A stretch of DNA of 64,000 nucleotides from Haematococcus lacustris (lineage: Eukaryota; Chlorophyta; Chlorophyceae; Chlamydomonadales; Haematococcaceae): the NCBI GenBank assembly GCA_030144725.1, contig JASKMD010000012.1:11214621-11278620 (forward strand), given 5' to 3'. Below, piece by piece: positions 1-33,136 of the stretch. The translations under genes were made by a program, and so were the position numbers. Each line of letters opens with the position of its first letter. Positions within the stretch are counted from its first letter, which is position 1. The notes under the pieces were generated by a model that worked only from the letters and a program-made list of their open reading frames with translations, did not search any database and was not told the DNA's origin.

Positions 1-3000
1 TGTAGTTCTCTGCGGGCTTGCTTTTCCGCTTCTGCCGTGGTGCTGCATCTGCCGGATTGGTGCGCTTTGTGGAGCGCCGCTGTGGCGATGGTTTTGCTGT
101 GGGATATGATGAGGTGGCCCCAGTCCGAGTAGGCGGAGAGCTTGTCGGCCTGGCAGCGTAGATTGCTGATTGAGTTGCATAGGATAGCGATGTCGTCTGC
201 ATAGTCGATGCTGCCGATGGTAAATCGCCCGGCGCTGTCGGTTGTATCGGATGTGAATTTGTACCCCCGCGCTCCTACTTGGAGCCAACGCAGTAGGGGT
301 TCGATGTAGATGAGGAATAAGAAAGGTGATAGGGAGTCGCCCTGGATGGTACCCCGGTCAACGGGTACCGGGTCGGTGTGACCGTACGGAGTGTTGAAGC
401 GTGTCGTTGCCCCCGTGTAGAGGTCCCGCACCGCATCTGTAGCGTCGGTGGGAAAGCCTAAGTCATGCATAATCCATAGCAGTTTGTCTTGACAAGTGGT
501 GTTGAAGGCGCTAGTGAAGTCGACCAGGAGCGCATATATATCTACTTTGGCTAGCTTGGCGTCTTCGAGGGCCATGACCAGCATTTGGAGCTGTTGTGTG
601 GTGTCCCTATGGGAGCGGAAGCCTGCTTGGCAGTTACTTAGCATCCCATTAGCTTCAGCATATTCGCACAGCGCTCTAGTTATGAGGCTGGTCCAGAGTT
701 TGTAGATGGTGTTGGCTAGCCCCACAGGTCTGTAGGCGTTGAGGTCTGTTTCTTGGCCCTTGTCTTTGTATAGCAGGCAGGTGTCACTGGCTTTCCATGC
801 TGTGGGTGTGCAGCCAGTGGCCCACATGACGATAAACAGCTGGTGAATGGTGTCCCTCATCTCCCATGGCAGCATCTTGATGATCTCGTTTTCAATGCCG
901 TCCGGGCCAGGTGCTTTGCCACCTGACAGTTTGCTGATGCATTCTTGAAATCCTGCTTTGTCCATGATGGCTGTGTGCAGCCAGTGTACATTTTGGCAGG
1001 TGTGCAACGTGAAGGGGTCGTCGGCTTTGGGGCGGGTCCAGGGATAGTTTCTGGTCTGTGTGCTAGTGTAGTGACCGGTTTTGGGAGTCGGCGGCGTGAG
1101 CTTTTGTCTGTAGGCGGTGGTGATAATTCGGTTGAGGTCGGCCGGGGCGGTGCAGATGTTCTTGGTATCGGGGTCGGCTAGTGCCTGCAGTCCTTTGTGG
1201 TCGGTGCGAGAAGGGCGTAGTATGTATTTGTTGGCTTTTTTGGGTTGGGTGCTGATGAGGTGTTGCATTCTGAGACGCGCCTGTGCAATGGCAAGTGCGG
1301 AGTCGTCGTCATCTAGTTTGTGGATTTGGTCGCGGTAGGAGTTGGTTAGCTGGGCGAGCGCGGCTTGCACGTGATTTTCGGTTGTACCGTCGCCCTGGCG
1401 TGCTTGCACCGCCTCCCTTACCTCCGCGTTGGTCGTGTCTGTTTCTGGGAGTAGGTCATCGACAGACGGGTGGACGCCGTTTTGTTTGTATAACCTTCTA
1501 GCCTTCCGGCTGAGTTCTCTGGTGGTTTTGAGCTTTTTCCCTAGTGCCAGTCTGATCTTGCACATGCTCCTGCGTTGGTAATGCTGGCCTCCTCTGGTCA
1601 ATGTCTTGGTGTTGCATGTCTGCATGGCAGTTCCCCTGCAGGTTTCCAGGAGCGTTGTGAGCATGGTGGCTGCGGTGTCGACAGCTGCTCTAGCCGGGAG
1701 GCCTGCCACTAGTGTTAGGCGTTGTGGTTGTTGTGGGTTAGCCTTGTCTAGTGTGGTCAGGAAGTGGATAGCGTCTGTGTACATGGGAGCTAGGTATGCT
1801 GTCAGGTGTGCATGTAGTTGTGGAGCGCCTGAGCTGGGTTGTTGCACTGCCAGGCGGTAGGCTTCCCTGTCATTATTGGTAATTGGGGTTGTGAGAATGG
1901 TATGGCTGTGTTTCAGGGGTTTATGTGTGGCTGCTAGTTCTATGCCCAGCCTGGTTGTGGTCAGTGTGGCGGTGAGCGGTCTGTGGTCACTAAGGTACGC
2001 TTGTGTGTCGACATGCGTGCGGTGCCCAGGGCCGTGTCTCGCGTCGCGCGTGAGAATGGCGTCAATGCGGCTGTTGCAGTGTGGCTGCTGGTAGGTCCAG
2101 GCCCGGTCGCCGGAATCAGCTTCGGACAGGCGCATCTCTGTGGCGAACTCCCTCATCATGTGGTCTTGTGGGTATTCAGTGTGTTCGGAGCGGTCCTCTG
2201 CTTTCATCGTGGCATTGATATCTCCCGCCAGGATGAGTGAGCCGGGCAGTTGTCCAGTGGCAGTCCGTATGTGCTCCTGCATCTTCTTCCTTAGCGGGAT
2301 CGCGTCGTCGTTGTTCCCTGACGGCCAGTACGTGGCGACGAGTGTGAGTTCCTCGCTTTGTCGTTGGCGAAGGTTTAGGATGACGCATCGGGTGTTCACG
2401 TTCGCATCTGTGCACGGCGGCATCATGGTGGCTTGCATCTGGATAGCTAGATCGTGTCTGATGCCAATGAGGACCTCACTATGGCCTTCGTGACGGTGGA
2501 CGGTGTAGTTGGGCATAACCCTCTTCAGCCAGCCAGAGCTAGAGTTGTTGCTCTTGGGTTGGGTCATAGTTTCTGTGAGGATTAAGATGTCCGGACTTTG
2601 TTTGTGCACCAGGTTAAGGACTTCGTTTCTAGATCTGTGTAGGCCTCTGACATTGAAGGTTGTGAGGGTGATGTGTTGCCTGTTGAGGGTTGCTTGGGGC
2701 AGTCCGGTTGGGGGTCTGTGGTGTTGGCTCATTCTTGGGTCACTCTCTGGCGTGGTTAGCGGTGTCTCGTCTATGATTGGATTTGTTTCTGTGGTGTGGA
2801 TCCCCGTAGTGGGTTTGGGGAGGTATTGGGACATGAGGGTTTGTGTGTGCGTGTCCTTGCAGTGTGCCTTGGTGGCTCGTGACCGCTTAGTGGATGGGCG
2901 TGTGGTATTATCGAGAGGCGTGGTGGATCGATTGATACGTGGCTGGCCCTGAGGTATCGGCGGGCGGAGGGTGACCTCGGGAGTGTCCTGGCGCTGTCGT

Positions 3001-5801
3001 GCCGGGGCAGGTTCTTCACGTAGTGGGGTGGTGTCTTTCGTAGGTATGCGCTTGTTGTTTAGTGTGTAGTTGTTTTCAGCGTTATTGGTGGTCACGTGCA
3101 GGGGGGCGGTGGTCTCCCTTGCCGTTGTGTTGTCTTTGGTCAGGTCTATTGGGTCGGTGTGGTCTTGGAAGTGTGCTGCTAGCGCTGATGTGGTGGTGGC
3201 CTCCAGCGGGTCCGCTATCCAGATCTCCCTTCTAATGAATCTTGTGTGTTTCACGTTGCCTGTGCAAATGGTGAGCAGGTTCCCTTGGAGGCGCCTCCAG
3301 TCGTTAGGTGTGGAAAGTGGCTTTGGCCCCCGGTTGAGTGAGTCCAGCTGGTACCAACCATGTTGCGTATGTTTGATGACAGTTGCATGGTGGTGTGATA
3401 GTAAGAGGACAGCATCCGTGTTTGTCGCGCCGGTGCTTGCGATGGTTGAGGTGATTGTTTCTGGTGTGATACTGTGGGTTGGTAGGTAGGTTGTTGCTGG
3501 GTGCAAGTATGTGCGTACCTCATGGTGTTTGCGGTACAGGTAGTGGTTCAGTGTGTCGGTGGAAAACTTGCCTTTCTCGCTATAGATGTGGTCGGTTGTG
3601 AGGGTTCGGATAGCATATCCTTCTTCTCGTGCTTTTTGTGCAAGGTGTTGCAGGTGCTCTTTTAACTGCTTGCAGTGGTCAATGACAGCGTGGTAGTCTA
3701 TGTATTTCTTTCCCATGGCCATGTTCAATGCATGTACTAGGCAACACTCTTCGTATTGCCCTTCCATGTACATATGAGTGGGGTGGTGGGTCGGGGTGTA
3801 CGCGGGGGCGGATGCTATTGGGTTGGAGTCATGATCGCCTGTCTGCTCCACATGGCTGATGATGTGATGGATGCCCTTTTCCTCGCATCGGCGTATCTGC
3901 TCCCGTGAGCGGGTATTGGGCGTGATGATAAAGAGTTGGTGCATAGTCCGCTTGGTTGCAGCAGGGATGTGCGAGAGAGGTGTAGGTATCGTTTTCATGG
4001 AGTCCAGCAAGTTCCATGTGCCGTTCATGCACTTCATGGCCATGCTGTGGCCTGGCTTTTTGCACAAAAACGTGTGTGTGCCGTACTGGCCAGCTAGGTG
4101 CCCTAGATTATCAGCGGACCAATCAATGGGTTGGTTGAGTTGGGCAATGCTTTGTACTGTAAGTCCGTAATGGGTACGTAGGTACATTTCAATGACTTCG
4201 TCGGAATAGCCATCAACGCCTCGTGCCATCAGCCATGCGCCGCGCTCAAGGTGGTCAGTAAGTTGAGGGAGCCTGGTCTCGTAAAAATTGTCTATGTCAT
4301 GCGTGGTGACCCATTCATGTCCCGCAGCATTGTTCAGGGAGTAGATCTGGCATTCCGAGCTATCTTTGTCTTGCTTAAAGTGCTTGATGGTTGGGCCTGG
4401 ATTAGCTTCAACATCCCCAGCGGCTAGTAACAGCCAGGCCACGTAGACAGCTCTTGCGACAGCTATGGGGTTGAAGGTGTATGTGGTCCAGTTCTTGTCG
4501 CTTGTTGTTGTTTGATAACAACAATAGACTTGCAGGGTGCTATTAAATTGATAGACTGTGTATGGTCTGCCGTTTTTAGCTCCGTGCATGGAAAGGTGGA
4601 ATCTGTTGGCAAGCTTGCATAGAGAGCTAGAGGCGGTTAGGGTGCCATCTATGCCTGTCATGAGATTGTATCCGATTGTTCGTACTATGGCTCTACATGA
4701 GCCCAATCGTCTTCTGTGCCGCCTTAGGCATTGTTTGGATTCTCTAGTTGTGGGTATGTGTCGTTGTTGGAAGCTGGTGTTGAGGATGTAGGTAATTATC
4801 ACAGAGAGTAGCAGTTGGGATACTAGGCTGTTCTGTCGGTAAATGATTCTGCCCGTGTGCGTGGGCCCGCACTGATGAGCAGGTCTGATGTTCTCGTTAC
4901 GGTGTTGTTGTTGGGTGGTCACGGTTAAGCTGTTTACATGGGTTACACGAGTTGAATGCTTACATGGTGTCTTGCTAACCACACAGGCCTGTGACCTAGC
5001 GCCATAGTGGGATGCTGGGATGTGTGGGGATGTGAGCCACTCATGACATAGCCTCGTTAATCCATCTGATGAGACTGTGTGAGGATGGGTGGGTAGCGAG
5101 TGTGCTGCCCAAGTTGTCCTTACACAATGCTGAGGCACCCCTGCATCGGTTGTACCGTGGCATCCTGGACCTGTTCCTAAGGGGCATGCCTGGTCTGGTT
5201 CCACATGTTTCCATGTCATGGCTGCGTTCCAGTATCTTGCTGGCAGCTCACGAGGCACCTCCAATGTTTGTGCCCCGACCCGGTGAGGCGCATCAGGCCT
5301 GCAGCAGGGTGACATGGTGAGGTTAGGAACCGGTGAGGCGGCAGGTGGGGCGAGGAGTATAGCTGCATGTAGGGCAGTAGGTGCATGTAGGGCAGTAGGT
5401 GCATGTAGGGCAGTAGGGCAGTAGGTATAGCTGCATGTAGGGCAGTAGGTGGGGCAGCATGTAGGTGCATGTAGGGCAGTAGGTGCATGTAGGTGCATGT
5501 AGGGCAGTAGGTGCATGTAGGGCAGTAGGGCAGTAGGTATAGCTGCATGTAGGGCAGTAGGTGGGGCAGTCGATGGGGCAGCCGATGGGGCAGCCGGTGA
5601 GGCAACATGTGGGGTGTGAGATGGGGCGGCTGGTGGGGTGGGAGGTGTCGTGTCGGGTGGGGCAGCAGTTATGGGGGCAGGTGTGGGTGGAATGTTGTGT
5701 GGTTTGGGGGTGACCCGTTGCTGCTCATGTTGGGCAACATCTAGTTGGCAGGCCTGTTGTGAGATGTGGTGAGTAGTATGCATGTGGTGAGTAGTATGCA
5801 T
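1..5801 (-). CDS. Non-LTR retrotransposon ORF2: 2A motif, two Josephin-like peptidases, APE endonuclease, reverse transcriptase (partial)
   Basis: The minus frame is open from 5825 to position 1 with no stop; I scanned every in-frame triplet. The protein therefore runs off the left edge after at least 1933 residues if it starts at the ATG at 5801; starts at 5783 or 5219 are possible. Domains in order: a Pro/Thr/His-rich low-complexity leader (5800-5340), a basic region, a 2A motif (about residue 470), two tandem peptidase-like domains (4355-3960 and 3770-3290), a Thr/Pro-rich linker, an APE/EEP endonuclease (about 2675-1960: FNVRGLHR, ILAGDINA, RIDAIL, SDHRPL) and a reverse transcriptase (about 930 to the edge: GKAPGPDGIENE, VDFTSAFN, GDSLSPFLF, YADD at 192-203). 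Endonuclease plus YADD RT marks a LINE. Any C-terminal RNase H, restriction-like endonuclease or zinc finger lies outside the window. The start overlaps the end of ORF1 by about 75 nt in another frame. Confidence 0.9.
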   Translation of the reverse strand, partial: MHTTHHMHTTHHISQQACQLDVAQHEQQRVTPKPHNIPPTPAPITAAPPDTTPPTPPAAPSHTPHVASPAAPSAAPSTAPPTALHAAIPTALLPYMHLLPYMHLHAPTALHAPTCCPTYCPTCSYTYCPTALHAPTALHAPTALHAAILLAPPAASPVPNLTMSPCCRPDAPHRVGAQTLEVPRELPARYWNAAMTWKHVEPDQACPLGTGPGCHGTTDAGVPQHCVRTTWAAHSLPTHPHTVSSDGLTRLCHEWLTSPHIPASHYGARSQACVVSKTPCKHSTRVTHVNSLTVTTQQQHRNENIRPAHQCGPTHTGRIIYRQNSLVSQLLLSVIITYILNTSFQQRHIPTTRESKQCLRRHRRRLGSCRAIVRTIGYNLMTGIDGTLTASSSLCKLANRFHLSMHGAKNGRPYTVYQFNSTLQVYCCYQTTTSDKNWTTYTFNPIAVARAVYVAWLLLAAGDVEANPGPTIKHFKQDKDSSECQIYSLNNAAGHEWVTTHDIDNFYETRLPQLTDHLERGAWLMARGVDGYSDEVIEMYLRTHYGLTVQSIAQLNQPIDWSADNLGHLAGQYGTHTFLCKKPGHSMAMKCMNGTWNLLDSMKTIPTPLSHIPAATKRTMHQLFIITPNTRSREQIRRCEEKGIHHIISHVEQTGDHDSNPIASAPAYTPTHHPTHMYMEGQYEECCLVHALNMAMGKKYIDYHAVIDHCKQLKEHLQHLAQKAREEGYAIRTLTTDHIYSEKGKFSTDTLNHYLYRKHHEVRTYLHPATTYLPTHSITPETITSTIASTGATNTDAVLLLSHHHATVIKHTQHGWYQLDSLNRGPKPLSTPNDWRRLQGNLLTICTGNVKHTRFIRREIWIADPLEATTTSALAAHFQDHTDPIDLTKDNTTARETTAPLHVTTNNAENNYTLNNKRIPTKDTTPLREEPAPARQRQDTPEVTLRPPIPQGQPRINRSTTPLDNTTRPSTKRSRATKAHCKDTHTQTLMSQYLPKPTTGIHTTETNPIIDETPLTTPESDPRMSQHHRPPTGLPQATLNRQHITLTTFNVRGLHRSRNEVLNLVHKQSPDILILTETMTQPKSNNSSSGWLKRVMPNYTVHRHEGHSEVLIGIRHDLAIQMQATMMPPCTDANVNTRCVILNLRQRQSEELTLVATYWPSGNNDDAIPLRKKMQEHIRTATGQLPGSLILAGDINATMKAEDRSEHTEYPQDHMMREFATEMRLSEADSGDRAWTYQQPHCNSRIDAILTRDARHGPGHRTHVDTQAYLSDHRPLTATLTTTRLGIELAATHKPLKHSHTILTTPITNNDREAYRLAVQQPSSGAPQLHAHLTAYLAPMYTDAIHFLTTLDKANPQQPQRLTLVAGLPARAAVDTAATMLTTLLETCRGTAMQTCNTKTLTRGGQHYQRRSMCKIRLALGKKLKTTRELSRKARRLYKQNGVHPSVDDLLPETDTTNAEVREAVQARQGDGTTENHVQAALAQLTNSYRDQIHKLDDDDSALAIAQARLRMQHLISTQPKKANKYILRPSRTDHKGLQALADPDTKNICTAPADLNRIITTAYRQKLTPPTPKTGHYTSTQTRNYPWTRPKADDPFTLHTCQNVHWLHTAIMDKAGFQECISKLSGGKAPGPDGIENEIIKMLPWEMRDTIHQLFIVMWATGCTPTAWKASDTCLLYKDKGQETDLNAYRPVGLANTIYKLWTSLITRALCEYAEANGMLSNCQAGFRSHRDTTQQLQMLVMALEDAKLAKVDIYALLVDFTSAFNTTCQDKLLWIMHDLGFPTDATDAVRDLYTGATTRFNTPYGHTDPVPVDRGTIQGDSLSPFLFLIYIEPLLRWLQVGARGYKFTSDTTDSAGRFTIGSIDYADDIAILCNSISNLRCQADKLSAYSDWGHLIISHSKTIATAALHKAHQSGRCSTTAEAEKQARREL
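3290..3770 (-). other. Josephin-like cysteine peptidase domain 2 (within ORF2)
   Basis: This is a second copy of the same pattern. Cys is in ECCLVHALNMAMG (catalytic Cys probably codon 3741), His in HHATVIK (codon 3387) and Asp in WYQLDSLN (codon 3342). Spacings are Cys-118-His-15-Asp. The C-L-V-H-A-L-N-M-A-M-G string aligns residue for residue with C-Q-I-Y-S-L-N-N-A-A-G of domain 1, so the two look like a tandem duplication. Both retain a full triad. An APE endonuclease follows after about 200 residues of low-complexity linker. Confidence 0.6.
3960..4355 (-). other. Josephin-like cysteine peptidase domain 1 (within ORF2)
   Basis: It begins about 12 residues after the 2A proline. The proposed catalytic Cys is in ECQIYSLNNAAG (codon 4350), His in GHSMAMK (codon 4047) and Asp in TWNLLDSM (codon 4002). 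Spacings are Cys-101-His-15-Asp. Ataxin-3 Josephin has Cys14, His119 and Asn134, i.e. 105 and 15. The CxxxxLNxAxG helix start and the WxxLDS strand also resemble papain-fold deubiquitinases. OTU or another C-peptidase family is an alternative; the assignment is by eye. Confidence 0.6.
4392..4418 (-). other. 2A-type ribosome-skipping motif in LINE ORF2
   Basis: In the ORF2 frame the codons read LLLAAGDVEANPGP followed by TIKH. This matches the D(V/I)ExNPGP consensus exactly, with a hydrophobic run before it, as in active 2A sequences. In known 2As the ribosome fails to form the final Gly-Pro bond, giving two proteins from one ORF. Here it would separate a roughly 469-residue N-terminal product from the peptidase-EN-RT part. 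2A-like sequences are known from some other LINEs (trypanosome L1Tc/ingi and several animal clades). Activity here is inferred. Confidence 0.85.
5365..5565. repeat. Imperfect GCATGTAGGGCAGTAGGT-type tandem repeat inside ORF2
   Basis: Short units of the type GCATGTAGGGCAGTAG recur about ten times with internal reshuffling (for example 5365, 5382, 5400, 5432 and 5483). The array stays open in the ORF2 frame and encodes Ala/Pro/Thr/Tyr-rich sequence, so it is a variable part of the ORF2 leader rather than a separate gene. Confidence 0.8.
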
Positions 5802-8541
5802 GTGGGCTGTGCAGCCCAGCGTATCTCACCTCAAGGTCCCGATCCGCTAATGTGGGCGGCCTCAGCTGCCAGGCTGGATGCCAGGCGTGCGGACAGGCTG
5901 CCAGCTCCCCATGCTCCAGCGTGGCGTTTACGGCGACGTGCATCCGGGGGCTGCAGGTAGGGGACATGGTAGCATATGTTGCAGCCACTGTGGCTCTTCT
6001 TGATGGCTGATCTGTGGGGTTGAGGGTGGTGATGAATGTGGTGCGTGTGTTGTGCGGTCTCTTGCGGTGTGTGTTGACAGGGGTGGCTGTGGGTCTATGT
6101 CGGGGTTGGCAGTGACTCACCGTGTTGGGGGGGGGGTCCATGGCGGCTCCAGCGGATGACGCCTCCTCTGCCAGGGAGCCACGGGCTGTAGTGCTGGGCT
6201 CCTCCTTTGCTGCCTCTCGTGACGGTGGGAGGTTACCTTTGCCGGGGGGAGGTAGCGTGGCGGAGGCAAGGACAGTCCCCTCAGCAATGTGGGCGTCCAT
6301 GGTGTCCAGGTGCGCCTTGATGGTGGCCCTGGTGGCCTCCCTGCCGCCAGGCTGGCTGTAGTAGCTGAGCATGGCTGTAATAAGGGGGGGGGTGGTGTCC
6401 AACACCTTCTGCAGGGGGGTGGGTGCTGCCTCCTCTTGTGTGGCGTGTGCAGCCTTGCCCACTTGCAGGTGATGGGCAGCGAGGGGTGACAGGGTCTTCA
6501 TGATGCTCATAATCCTGGGGGCAGCCTCCGTGCCCACAATCCGGTGGGCTGCTGCCATGGCGACACTGGCAGCGGTGCTCAGCTGCTGGTAGATCAGGTG
6601 GGCGGCAGTGGTGGGGGAGCCCACTGCTTTGCCTGGCCCCATGTGGCTGCCCGCGTGCCCATCCACAGTCATGGGCAGGCCAGAGGAGTCCGTGACGGGG
6701 CTGTTGTTGCTGCCTGCATTGGCCATGACGAAGGTTAGGGCTGCCTGCTGAGCCAGGCTGCCAGGCACCAGGATGAGGAACTGTCTGGCCCCTCCGCTAG
6801 CCTGTGGCAGCTGAACGCCTGCCAGGGCGCGTATCTTGTTCCCAGTGGCGATACCCACATAGCGTTGCACATCCGGCACCCCCTCAGCTGTTACAGATGC
6901 TGCATTGGCTGGGGTCCCTCCCCCTAGGGCTGTAAGCTGTAGGTCCTGGCCCCACTGGCTGTGGTAGGCAATGGCCAGCTTCTGGATGCTGGTTGCTAGG
7001 GACTTGGGCTGCGTGGCAGCCCATGACACGCTCAGGCTCACCCCGTCCCGGGTGAGCAAGCCTGTGGCCTGGCTGCTGCTGGCCGTAGCTAGGGTGAAGC
7101 TAAGAGAGTCTGTTGCATCAATCGTGATGCGCTCCAGCTGTTCAACGGCTGAGCTGATAGCGGCCTCCGCAAAACCGACCTCCATGTATGCGTCTACATC
7201 CCTGATGGAGACGATGCTGTTGCACAGCAGGAAGGCGGTGTTACGCGTGTGCTCCTGCCCTGTGGTGACCTCTATGGCCTTGTTGATAACATACTGAAGT
7301 TCCCCCCGGAGGCATGAGGCCCTGCTGCCCCTGGTGCTGATGGAGCTGGCTGCCTTGGCTGCAGGCGATCCATCAATCATGCGGCAATGGTAGCGCACGG
7401 ACATCTTGACAGGGTGGCAGGGGGGTATGGCAAAGGTCAGCAGGGGCCTAGCGGTAACCACACTAGCTGGGCGGCCTTGTGAGGGCCCCTGTACGCACGG
7501 CATGGAGGATAGGGGCCCTTTGGAGGCGATGACAGCCCCTACCAGGCCGATGAATGCCAGGCTGCTGTGAGCCTCCTCAGAGCTGATGGTAACCGCCACG
7601 TCGAAGCTGGCTAGGTCTCCGTGGCGCTCAGCCGCGCTGATCGTGGCCTTCTTGATCTGAAGGGTGTTCCTGATAAAAATCTTGAGCTCCTTCATAACTT
7701 CTGCAGTGCGCAGGCATGCATCATGCTCCTTGTTATGGGTATGAGTGGGCAGGTGCCCGTCTTGGTACAAAATATGCACGGGCAGTCGCATGTTGTGTTG
7801 TGCTAATGTGTTGTGCACGTGGCTAGGTGTGTGCCCAGCAACATTCACTGTTTTCTTACTGATTTTGTTATCTTCGGTAAGGTAGATGTCCCTGATGGTC
7901 ACGGCTGTGCCAGTCCGGAAAGCGGGCGTAAAGGTGGAGAAGATGGCCCCCTCGGGTCCAGCGTTGGCAATGCTGGCGATGATGATGTTTGCCTGCTCTT
8001 CTGACACGCTGTTCAGACTTGGGTCGGCTGTGCGCGGCCCACGCGGAAGAGGTGCAGCAGGTCTTGGTTTGCCGCAGGGGAGGGTGTAGAGAGCTCGGAT
8101 AGTCGCAGACATGGGTTGGTTCTTTGGCAGCAGCAAGCTACCGAGGGCGTAGCCCGTAAGGGCCGAGTCAAGTCGTGAGTCTTTGGTTAGACCGAAGCCT
8201 TCTAGTTCTGGCGGCTTCCCGCCTGTGGTCAGGGCACCGCGTCGCAAGACGGGGCTTGTTTGTGGCAGATTGTTGGAATAATGGCTCAGGGCCGCAGGTT
8301 GGCATATAGCCAACGCCATGTTTGCGCGGCTTGGTAAGCCTTCTGGGCGGTGCTCAAGCTGCGGGGGGGTCTCAAAGGACCATGTCCCCATCGCAACTCG
8401 GCGCCGCCCAGCGCAGAACAGGCACAGAACAACGCATATGACAATCAGCCATCGCCTGCATCTACCTGCAGGCGTGTCGACTGCCATCGCCGCTGTCTGT
8501 CCACGGAGGTTACAACTCGGCGTTGATGATTCGAGGCTCAT
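5725..8541 (-). CDS. LINE ORF1-like protein, 938 aa, function unknown
   Basis: A single 938-codon ORF starts at ATG 8541 and ends with TGA at 5725. It lies directly upstream of ORF2 on the same strand and overlaps the ORF2 start by about 75 nt, the arrangement expected of ORF1 in a two-ORF LINE. Visible features: a hydrophobic segment near residues 30-45 flanked by Arg (WLIVICVVLCLFC), a long mid-region of ordinary globular composition rich in Ala, Thr and Ser, and a Pro/Ala/Thr-rich tail (last roughly 200 residues). I see no CCHC knuckle, RRM or esterase motif of the kinds known in LINE ORF1 proteins. A membrane-anchored or structural role is possible but not shown. It could also be an unrelated captured gene. 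Confidence 0.65.
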   Translation of the reverse strand: MSLESSTPSCNLRGQTAAMAVDTPAGRCRRWLIVICVVLCLFCAGRRRVAMGTWSFETPPQLEHRPEGLPSRANMALAICQPAALSHYSNNLPQTSPVLRRGALTTGGKPPELEGFGLTKDSRLDSALTGYALGSLLLPKNQPMSATIRALYTLPCGKPRPAAPLPRGPRTADPSLNSVSEEQANIIIASIANAGPEGAIFSTFTPAFRTGTAVTIRDIYLTEDNKISKKTVNVAGHTPSHVHNTLAQHNMRLPVHILYQDGHLPTHTHNKEHDACLRTAEVMKELKIFIRNTLQIKKATISAAERHGDLASFDVAVTISSEEAHSSLAFIGLVGAVIASKGPLSSMPCVQGPSQGRPASVVTARPLLTFAIPPCHPVKMSVRYHCRMIDGSPAAKAASSISTRGSRASCLRGELQYVINKAIEVTTGQEHTRNTAFLLCNSIVSIRDVDAYMEVGFAEAAISSAVEQLERITIDATDSLSFTLATASSSQATGLLTRDGVSLSVSWAATQPKSLATSIQKLAIAYHSQWGQDLQLTALGGGTPANAASVTAEGVPDVQRYVGIATGNKIRALAGVQLPQASGGARQFLILVPGSLAQQAALTFVMANAGSNNSPVTDSSGLPMTVDGHAGSHMGPGKAVGSPTTAAHLIYQQLSTAASVAMAAAHRIVGTEAAPRIMSIMKTLSPLAAHHLQVGKAAHATQEEAAPTPLQKVLDTTPPLITAMLSYYSQPGGREATRATIKAHLDTMDAHIAEGTVLASATLPPPGKGNLPPSREAAKEEPSTTARGSLAEEASSAGAAMDPPPNTVSHCQPRHRPTATPVNTHRKRPHNTRTTFITTLNPTDQPSRRATVAATYATMSPTCSPRMHVAVNATLEHGELAACPHAWHPAWQLRPPTLADRDLEVRYAGLHSPHAYYSPHAYYSPHLTTGLPTRCCPT

Positions 8542-9944
8542 TTGGAAGCTCTCAGCTTGCTCCTTATCGCCCTGCTAACAGGTCGTTTAGAAGTAGCGTA
8601 GATGCTCCAGGACTTCGCGTCGAAAATTCAAACCGAAAATTGTGATATGGTGCCCCCATACGTGTCAAGCCTACCCTTCCCCTCTCCCACCCTTCGATTG
8701 ACGTGGCATCGCAACCCCCACCTCACCCCACCTTCCCTTCCCTACACCCTACACTCCCCACCGCAGTCCCACCCCACTGGCGCATGGGATATGTTGCCTG
8801 GTGTGAGCAGGTAGGAGGCCAGGAGGACCACAAAGGTAAGGCCACGGTGATAGCTAACACAGCGCCCAGCCTGGTCACACTACAGCACGTGTATGCCCCT
8901 TGGTTGCAGGTCTAGTGGGCACCTCCCTTCCACTTCCCTTTCCCCTACACAACCACCCCCTCCCAATTCATCCTCCCCCGCCCCCGCCCCCGCCCCCGCC
9001 CCCGCCCCCGCCCCCGCCCCTGCCCCCACCCCCACCCATGCCCCCACCCACCCCAACCCATGCCCCCAACCCATGCCCCCACCCACCCAAACCCATGCCC
9101 CCAACCCAACCCACCCCCGCCCAGCCCAACCCGGTTGAGCCTCCCGCCTCCCCACCTCCCGCCTCCCTGCCTCCCGCCTCCCCGTCCCCCGCCTCCCTGC
9201 CTCCCACCTCCCGCCTTCCAAGAAAGAAGAAAGAAGAAGAAGAAGAAAACTACTCCGGTACAAACCGGCGTGCATTAAGGGAGGAGCTTCCGCCTGTGGC
9301 GCGGCCTGCTCCCACCTCCAAACGTTGGACACAGGCTGGACATGTCCCCATCAAGCTGCCCTAGCTGTAGCCACAGACCACAGCTAGCACCCAAGGCAAA
9401 CAAGAGGCATTAGAGGAGCAAAGACTAGTGCACTCGGCAGCTGGCCTTATCTCTTCTCCTCGTTGACGAGAGCAATTCCAGCCTTGTCCGCCGGATGTCG
9501 CACTAAAAGCTGAAGTTCAGGCTCCAAAAGTCCAAACTTCAGCTGTCAGCCAACGTCCCGCGTTGAGGTAGCTCTGCTCCCTCCTTGACGACGCCAGCAA
9601 CTCCACAGCAGCTCGATGACCCGCAGCGGTCGTGTGCGGCACCCGGACCTCATTTGTATTCCGCTGGACAAAGCGGTGCCCGTTCAAGCCTGGGAAGGCT
9701 TTCCCGTTGCATCCCAATTTATATACCGCTGGGTGCGGTGGTGAGGTAGCTTAGCCAATCCGTGCGACCGAAGTCAACGCGGATTGTTACCAGGGCCACC
9801 GCGTGGAGGTGCCTCACCGCCAGCCCCCCCGCCTTCCACATCTACCCCCCCTCCCCGCCTTCACTCTTCCACTCCCCCCCCTTCCTAGCAGCAGTCATCA
9901 AGCAGCCAAAAAGGTAGGTAGGTGCTACAGTGCCCCTACTATAT
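8542..9944. other. Probable 5' flank of the LINE with C-rich and GAA-rich low-complexity DNA
   Basis: No gene is supported. From 8978 to about 9020 the sequence is nearly pure (CCCCCG)n. It continues as CCCAACCCATGCC-type repeats to 9130 and CCTCCCGCCTCCCTG units to 9220, then a GAA-rich run at 9226-9250. ORFs across this stretch are artefacts of composition. The LINE 5' UTR or promoter should lie in the first few hundred bases. Confidence 0.6.

Positions 9945-30094: not shown

Positions 30095-33136
<3,042 letters not shown>

Follow-up and report, generated by a model that had tools for sequence, protein, structure and literature searches.

The 64,000-nucleotide stretch of the Haematococcus lacustris genome analyzed here (contig JASKMD010000012.1, positions 11,214,621 to 11,278,620, assembly GCA_030144725.1; hereinafter, the window) contains, on the minus strand, a non-long terminal repeat retrotransposon whose second open reading frame (ORF2) carries two consecutive Josephin-family domains, denoted Jos1 and Jos2. 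By domain layout, we assign the element to the Dualen/RandI-like long interspersed nuclear elements (LINEs). The reading that we favor, with a probability of roughly 0.6, is that ORF2 of this element gives rise to a protein released at a 2A motif, in which Jos2 is predicted to be active and the pair would deubiquitinate the element's own polyprotein or ribonucleoprotein (RNP), or host factors. The presence of two deubiquitinase-related domains suggests that the element may shield itself from the protein-disposal system of the cell.

Josephin identity of the two domains

The ORF2 frame occupies, from stop to stop, window positions 3..5825 on the minus strand (1941 amino acids (aa) inside the window; residue r starts at window position 5825-3(r-1)) and extends beyond the window by a further 1462 stop-free aa, to contig C22:11210234 of the H. 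lacustris assembly, for a total of 3403 aa. The order of its parts is a pre-2A segment, the 2A motif, Jos1, Jos2, an APE endonuclease and a reverse transcriptase (RT). The 2A (StopGo) motif DVEANPGP (4392..4415, minus strand; residues 471-478) fits the pattern D[V/I]ExNPGP, and its first and last residues are kept in 45 of 51 genomic copies, the remaining 6 having no letters at that place. Jos1 (3906..4382, minus strand; residues 482-640) contains the motifs CQIYSLNNAAG and WNLLDS and the putative triad Cys492 (at 4352), His593 (+101; at 4049) and Asp608 (+15; at 4004). Jos2 (3276..3767, minus strand; residues 687-850), a domain of canonical appearance, contains CLVHALNMAMG and WYQLDS together with Gln690, Cys695 (at 3743), His813 (+118; at 3389) and Asp828 (+15; at 3344).

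Comparison of the whole ORF2 with the Pfam Josephin family (PF02099) yields a match in two stretches (E = 2.2e-14, 54 bits; cut-off 26), which bears out the proposal, made in an earlier sequence-only reading of the window, that two consecutive Josephin-like domains lie between 2A and APE in a LINE polyprotein; the motifs and spacings given there (Cys-101/118-His-15-Asp) are found in the window frame exactly as described, and both putative triads are present. Jos2 alone scores 50.3 bits against PF02099, and among the Jos1 domains from three other families, two pass the cut-off (28.5 and 32.8) and one fails (16.7). All 14 tandem regions scanned at a limit of E <= 1 match Pfam Josephin, the best at 1.8e-21. 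In an alignment of 14 sequences, in which the window row comprises 397 residues, the six triad positions are all among the 23 invariant columns. The profile made from the tandem alignment matches the solved structures of ataxin-3 (5.7e-9), Josephin-2 (1.2e-8) and PaJOS (5e-5), followed by a C39-like peptidase (0.065). Direct comparison of Jos1 with Jos2 gave no match with phmmer and a BLASTP match of only 26 residues (E = 0.005); the kinship of the two domains is deduced from the profiles and the tree. By its score and catalytic residues, Jos2 is classified as a member of the Josephin family; Jos1 is classified as a divergent Josephin-like paralogue, without membership on its own score, which falls under the cut-off, so that its family assignment derives from its relatives, its triad and the tree.

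Genomic copies and selection

A scan of the H. lacustris assembly with the Josephin domain, in which 150 of 800 candidates were scored, gave a lower bound of at least 150 matches, one of which has an internal stop. With the whole tandem as the query (104 scored of 871 candidates), at least 104 places were found, 101 of which cover the tandem from residue 4 or earlier, three begin past the Jos1 Cys, and 97 are stop-free inside. These counts bear on the possibility that the domains come from a host gene captured beside the LINE, or from a gene-model artefact, instead of being part of the element. This explanation, in favor of which nothing was found, was considered because the database gene models of H. 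lacustris fuse domains of other transposons; however, the frame is continuous in the genomic DNA, without any gene model, the tandem recurs, mostly stop-free, at the places just counted, and the domain is found also in 25 of the 45 relatives described below, making capture or artefact highly improbable.

Sixty copies were fetched, and 51 were used for column counts, the other 9 being left out because their open piece is shorter than 1100 aa. Wherever letters exist, the triads are invariant in the 51 copies: the Jos1 Cys in 47 (4 without letters), the Jos1 His and Asp in 50 (1 without letters) and the complete Jos2 triad in 51. When counted by motif in all 60 copies, Jos2 is complete in 59, and the Jos1 Cys is accompanied by His-Asp in 53. 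The conservation of the triads among related copies, on which the sequence-only reading had in part staked its case, thus withstood the comparison in both the 14-sequence alignment and the 60 copies.

Selection was assessed with median Nei-Gojobori dN/dS ratios, for which we prefer the set with one pair per family out of the 91 possible pairs, at dS values that are near saturation between families; in this set, the medians are 0.27 for Jos1 (52 pairs), 0.25 for Jos2 (65 pairs) and 0.42 for the linker between Jos2 and APE (80 pairs). The within-family medians for Jos1, the Jos1-Jos2 linker, Jos2, the Jos2-APE linker and APE are 0.27, 0.27, 0.25, 0.47 and 0.12, in that order; for all pairs with dS between 0.05 and 1, the respective values are 0.13, 0.25, 0.17, 0.49 and 0.13. 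Both Jos1 and Jos2 are under purifying selection, which is weaker than that on APE and no stronger than that on the stretch between the two domains.

Relatives and age of the tandem

A protein search with the RT and APE regions, in which part of the candidates was scored, identified at least 179 relatives, the best 120 of these being among the matches listed. Of the relatives P0081-P0130, 5 are from Haematococcus and the other 45 form the comparison set. Josephin-like domains were detected by profile in 25 of the 45 relatives, with 33 matches in all; 8 relatives have two, although in P0100 one of the two is a short fragment. The origin of the domain thus predates the H. lacustris genome. The profile of the 33 stretches matches the solved structures of Josephin-2 (7.6e-14), ataxin-3 (7e-12), PaJOS (5.6e-9) and BpJOS (5.4e-7) and, more weakly, a ubiquitin hydrolase (0.0023), a C39-like peptidase (0.0079) and TssM deubiquitinases (0.1 and 0.15); two of the 33 stretches match UCH (best 0.0013). 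Taken with the Pfam scores, these matches support the Josephin-family relationship that the sequence-only reading had drawn from motifs and spacings.

A quick tree, computed for 53 domains with SH-aLRT support only, places Jos1 in one group (97) with the first domain of each of P0083, P0089 and P0120. Jos2 is grouped with the second domain of P0083 and that of P0120 (90), the second domain of P0089 falling outside. We take the tree as moderate support for a tandem that would predate Haematococcus. Both domains of P0103 pair with each other (91), and those of P0111, P0123 and P0124 are placed elsewhere; given this placement, the tandems of these four proteins look like separate duplications.

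The association with 2A motifs extends to some of the relatives: in P0103, a 2A-like GIEPNPGP lies directly ahead of the first Josephin domain, and 2A motifs adjoin the Josephin matches of P0100; P0116 has a 2A motif and no Josephin domain by profile. In P0128, the place before APE that Josephin takes up in relatives (residues 1054-1360) matches Ulp1 instead (25.4 bits, cut-off 20.7), next to a weak match to OTU that stays under its cut-off (18.8 bits against 23.3), so the position ahead of APE can hold another protease of the ubiquitin or ubiquitin-like (UBL) type. A third protein search returned 13 proteins, 6 known and 7 new, three of the latter named as oomycete; PF02099 is listed for none of the 7, and no further named alga was among the 13. 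A plasmid search gave no match, as expected.

Catalytic residues and proposed function

In Josephins, the Gln five residues before the Cys is the oxyanion residue. Jos2 carries this Gln (Gln690) in 51 of 51 copies. In Jos1, the Gln is present at that distance in 15 of the 53 copies that have a Jos1 motif and in 1 of 51 by alignment column, the column being gap-shifted in part of the families; it is also missing from the three first domains with which Jos1 groups in the tree (P0083, P0089 and P0120). The usual absence of the Gln from Jos1 and from these first domains would fit the notion that the domains are mainly non-catalytic and, by binding ubiquitin or serving as a scaffold, guide the RT complex to chromatin that carries ubiquitin or to the proteasome; we consider this rather improbable, in view of the retention of Cys, His and Asp by both domains at 20-28% identity and of the whole catalytic set in Jos2.

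The favored reading, deubiquitination by a 2A-released protein, can be laid out as follows. The 2A site would release a downstream protein that starts just before Jos1 and would comprise Jos1, Jos2, APE, RT, a PHD-like region, RNase H and a restriction-like endonuclease (RLE). Jos2, which has the full Gln-Cys-His-Asp set, most likely functions as an active ubiquitin isopeptidase. In Jos1, the triad is kept and the oxyanion Gln is mostly absent; this domain probably serves as a protease of reduced or retuned activity, or else as a ubiquitin-binding module. The pair would strip ubiquitin from the element's own very large polyprotein or RNP, or from host factors at the target, and the RT complex would thereby survive the proteasome.

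Alternatively, the Josephin pair might process the polyprotein as viral proteases do, dividing the 3403-aa ORF2 into pieces with protease, APE, RT and RLE. The pair does sit within one very long frame, directly after 2A, and both the window copy and the Haematococcus relatives P0004, P0015 and P0023 have, between APE and RT, an LTRGG resembling a ubiquitin tail; however, the same place reads NPGG-x-H in the 8-sequence consensus of distant relatives, LTRGG is absent from the printed rows of the 45 relatives, and the best solved-structure matches are Josephin deubiquitinases, so processing of this kind appears unlikely. A conserved cleavage site for self-processing was not found, the RGG between APE and RT being the sole candidate examined. 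Self-cleavage at LTRGG as a general mechanism was rejected given the NPGG in the distant consensus.

Deubiquitination that guards the element's own proteins is accordingly rated the likeliest role, and self-processing a less likely one, because the best solved-structure matches are Josephin enzymes and the alternative proteases of P0128 belong to ubiquitin and UBL families. Of the two functions that the sequence-only reading had offered, deubiquitination is the better supported, in view of the RGG that is not kept in the distant consensus and of the Ulp1 and weak OTU matches of P0128.

Several observations weigh against the deubiquitination reading. Jos1 of the window copy scores, on its own, 14.8 bits against PF02099, below the cut-off of 26, and has a Lys in place of the Gln five residues ahead of the Cys. 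The APE domain, with a dN/dS of 0.12 (90 pairs, one per family), is much more constrained than the Josephin domains, and the Jos1-Jos2 linker, at 0.26 (12 pairs only), has the same ratio as the domains themselves. The Josephin profile mixes both domains, and the proteins in which its matches were counted are those on which it had been iterated; of the 33 stretches that it detects, Pfam alone recovers 24 at E <= 1, and P0099 has no Josephin match by Pfam at E <= 0.1. By profile, 20 of the 45 relatives lack Josephin, some of them possibly cut short at contig ends. In the tree, the first domain of P0083 and both domains of P0120 are long branches of unsure place.

A broader proposition, to which we give slightly less than even odds, is that Dualen-type LINEs bring their own deubiquitination activity: the site ahead of APE would be swappable, occupied either by Josephins, singly or in pairs, or by Ulp1 together with OTU, and would be maintained by selection to counter a host defence that destroys the retrotransposition complex by way of ubiquitin, Jos2 being the cutter and Jos1 its retuned partner.

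Relationship to known LINEs and enzymes

The layout of Dualen/RandI LINEs consists of APE plus RLE plus RNase H. Kojima and Fujiwara are reported to have described, in 2005, a cysteine protease in Dualen. The combination of APE, RLE and RNase H is partly documented in PMC4640811 as the Dualen/RandI layout, and PMC8226300 indicates that all the species curated there contain Dualen LINEs. The window element resembles Dualen/RandI in the presence of APE, RLE and RNase H, in the reported cysteine protease and in the green-algal host (the latter after PMC8226300); a distinguishing trait is that its Josephin pair is immediately preceded by a 2A motif.

In the continuation of ORF2 past the window edge, a PHD-like cysteine cluster, an RNase H and a C-terminal stretch with CCHC, RHN and RPD..EIK are discernible by eye. 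The RLE motif columns C..C, H, RH, PD and ExK are invariant in 7 relatives, and the same motifs are present in the continuation of the window copy; the RLE profile matches are weak, the best two in PDB being R2 proteins, which are colinear (E = 0.2 and 0.39), and P0099 matches Pfam PDDEXK_9 at E = 0.07, under the cut-off. RNase H is recognized by Pfam PF00075 in the relative P0004 (54.8 bits), and in the continuation of the window copy by eye only. In many relatives, RT is separated from RNase H by a domain that resembles PCIF1 (Pfam PF12237, a cap methyltransferase family; P0099 2060-2217, P0128 3290-3437 and, weakly, P0085 2322-2414); this module was set aside as a part of the story, NPP[FWY] being absent from 24 of the 24 proteins searched.

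Ataxin-3, Josephin-1/2, PaJOS and BpJOS are deubiquitinases. The two domains described here share with the Josephin deubiquitinases (PF02099) the Gln-Cys-His-Asp(Asn) arrangement, similar spacings and significant profile matches, and differ from them in forming a tandem pair inside a retrotransposon polyprotein, with Jos1 mostly lacking the oxyanion Gln. APE-type LINEs bearing 2A were reportedly described by Odon et al. in 2013; those elements and the present one have in common a LINE protein with D[V/I]ExNPGP, and the present one differs in that a Josephin pair follows the motif. Proteases of the ubiquitin/UBL type occur in several LINE lineages; according to PMC4640811, Ulp1-like proteases are found in nematode NeSL families and in one Utopia family. 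Like the window element, these RLE-bearing LINEs have a ubiquitin/UBL-type cysteine protease ahead of RT; unlike it, they have a protease of another family (N-terminal, Ulp1-like) and, in the classification given in that paper, are of the RLE type without APE.

No transposon-borne Josephin was among the matches listed in a literature search that covered titles and abstract openings, with subscription papers and repeat databases outside its scope; one match concerns ataxin-3 retrocopies in primates, and many others probably reflect the name Josephine. The word Josephin is absent from the main texts of PMC12846837 and PMC4981915, and among the matches of a literature search on Haematococcus retrotransposons and LINEs, no title points to such an element. 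If correct, the favored reading would extend Josephin enzymes to mobile elements. The protease described here has structurally solved relatives, two predicted active sites and at least 104 tandem places, 97 of them stop-free, in one assembly; for these reasons, deubiquitination by a LINE of its own RNP is directly testable.

Other features of the element and the window

Downstream of Jos2, the APE-type endonuclease occupies 1956..2672 on the minus strand (residues 1052-1290), with a Pfam PF03372 match at residues 1056-1281 (45.3 bits, cut-off 24.5), and RT occupies 81..743 on the same strand, with a PF00078 match at residues 1695-1915 (77.3 bits), beyond which the ORF runs past the window edge. 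The pre-2A segment conserved among copies (4416..4730, minus strand; residues 366-470) has a median dN/dS of 0.187, with all pairs used. About 140 aa ahead of the 2A motif lies a hydrophobic stretch (within window 4416-4840), which is present also in several, not all, proteins examined, and a second hydrophobic run immediately precedes the 2A motif. The hydrophobic stretch could be a signal anchor, in which case 2A skipping would yield two differently targeted products.

The ORF1 frame (5725..8574, minus strand; 949 aa from stop to stop) differs from that of ORF2; it has no Pfam match above the cut-off and, by eye, is similar to P0001 in the N-terminal part of the latter. A minisatellite-like Cys-Pro-Thr/His-Ala-Pro repeat is seen by eye at window 5200-5700, around the change of frame where ORF1 and ORF2 overlap. 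Just upstream of the element, 77 bp at window 9240-9316 are 90% like its 3' end, with a TTCTT-type tail by eye, and are probably a remnant of another copy; about 514 bp at window 8655-9167 are 80% like the flank past the other end of the element, in the opposite orientation. Farther along the window, at 30095-33134, some 1013 CTG units follow one another without a flaw (100% match), an exceptionally long and pure (CTG)n run that is either a real expansion or an assembly product.

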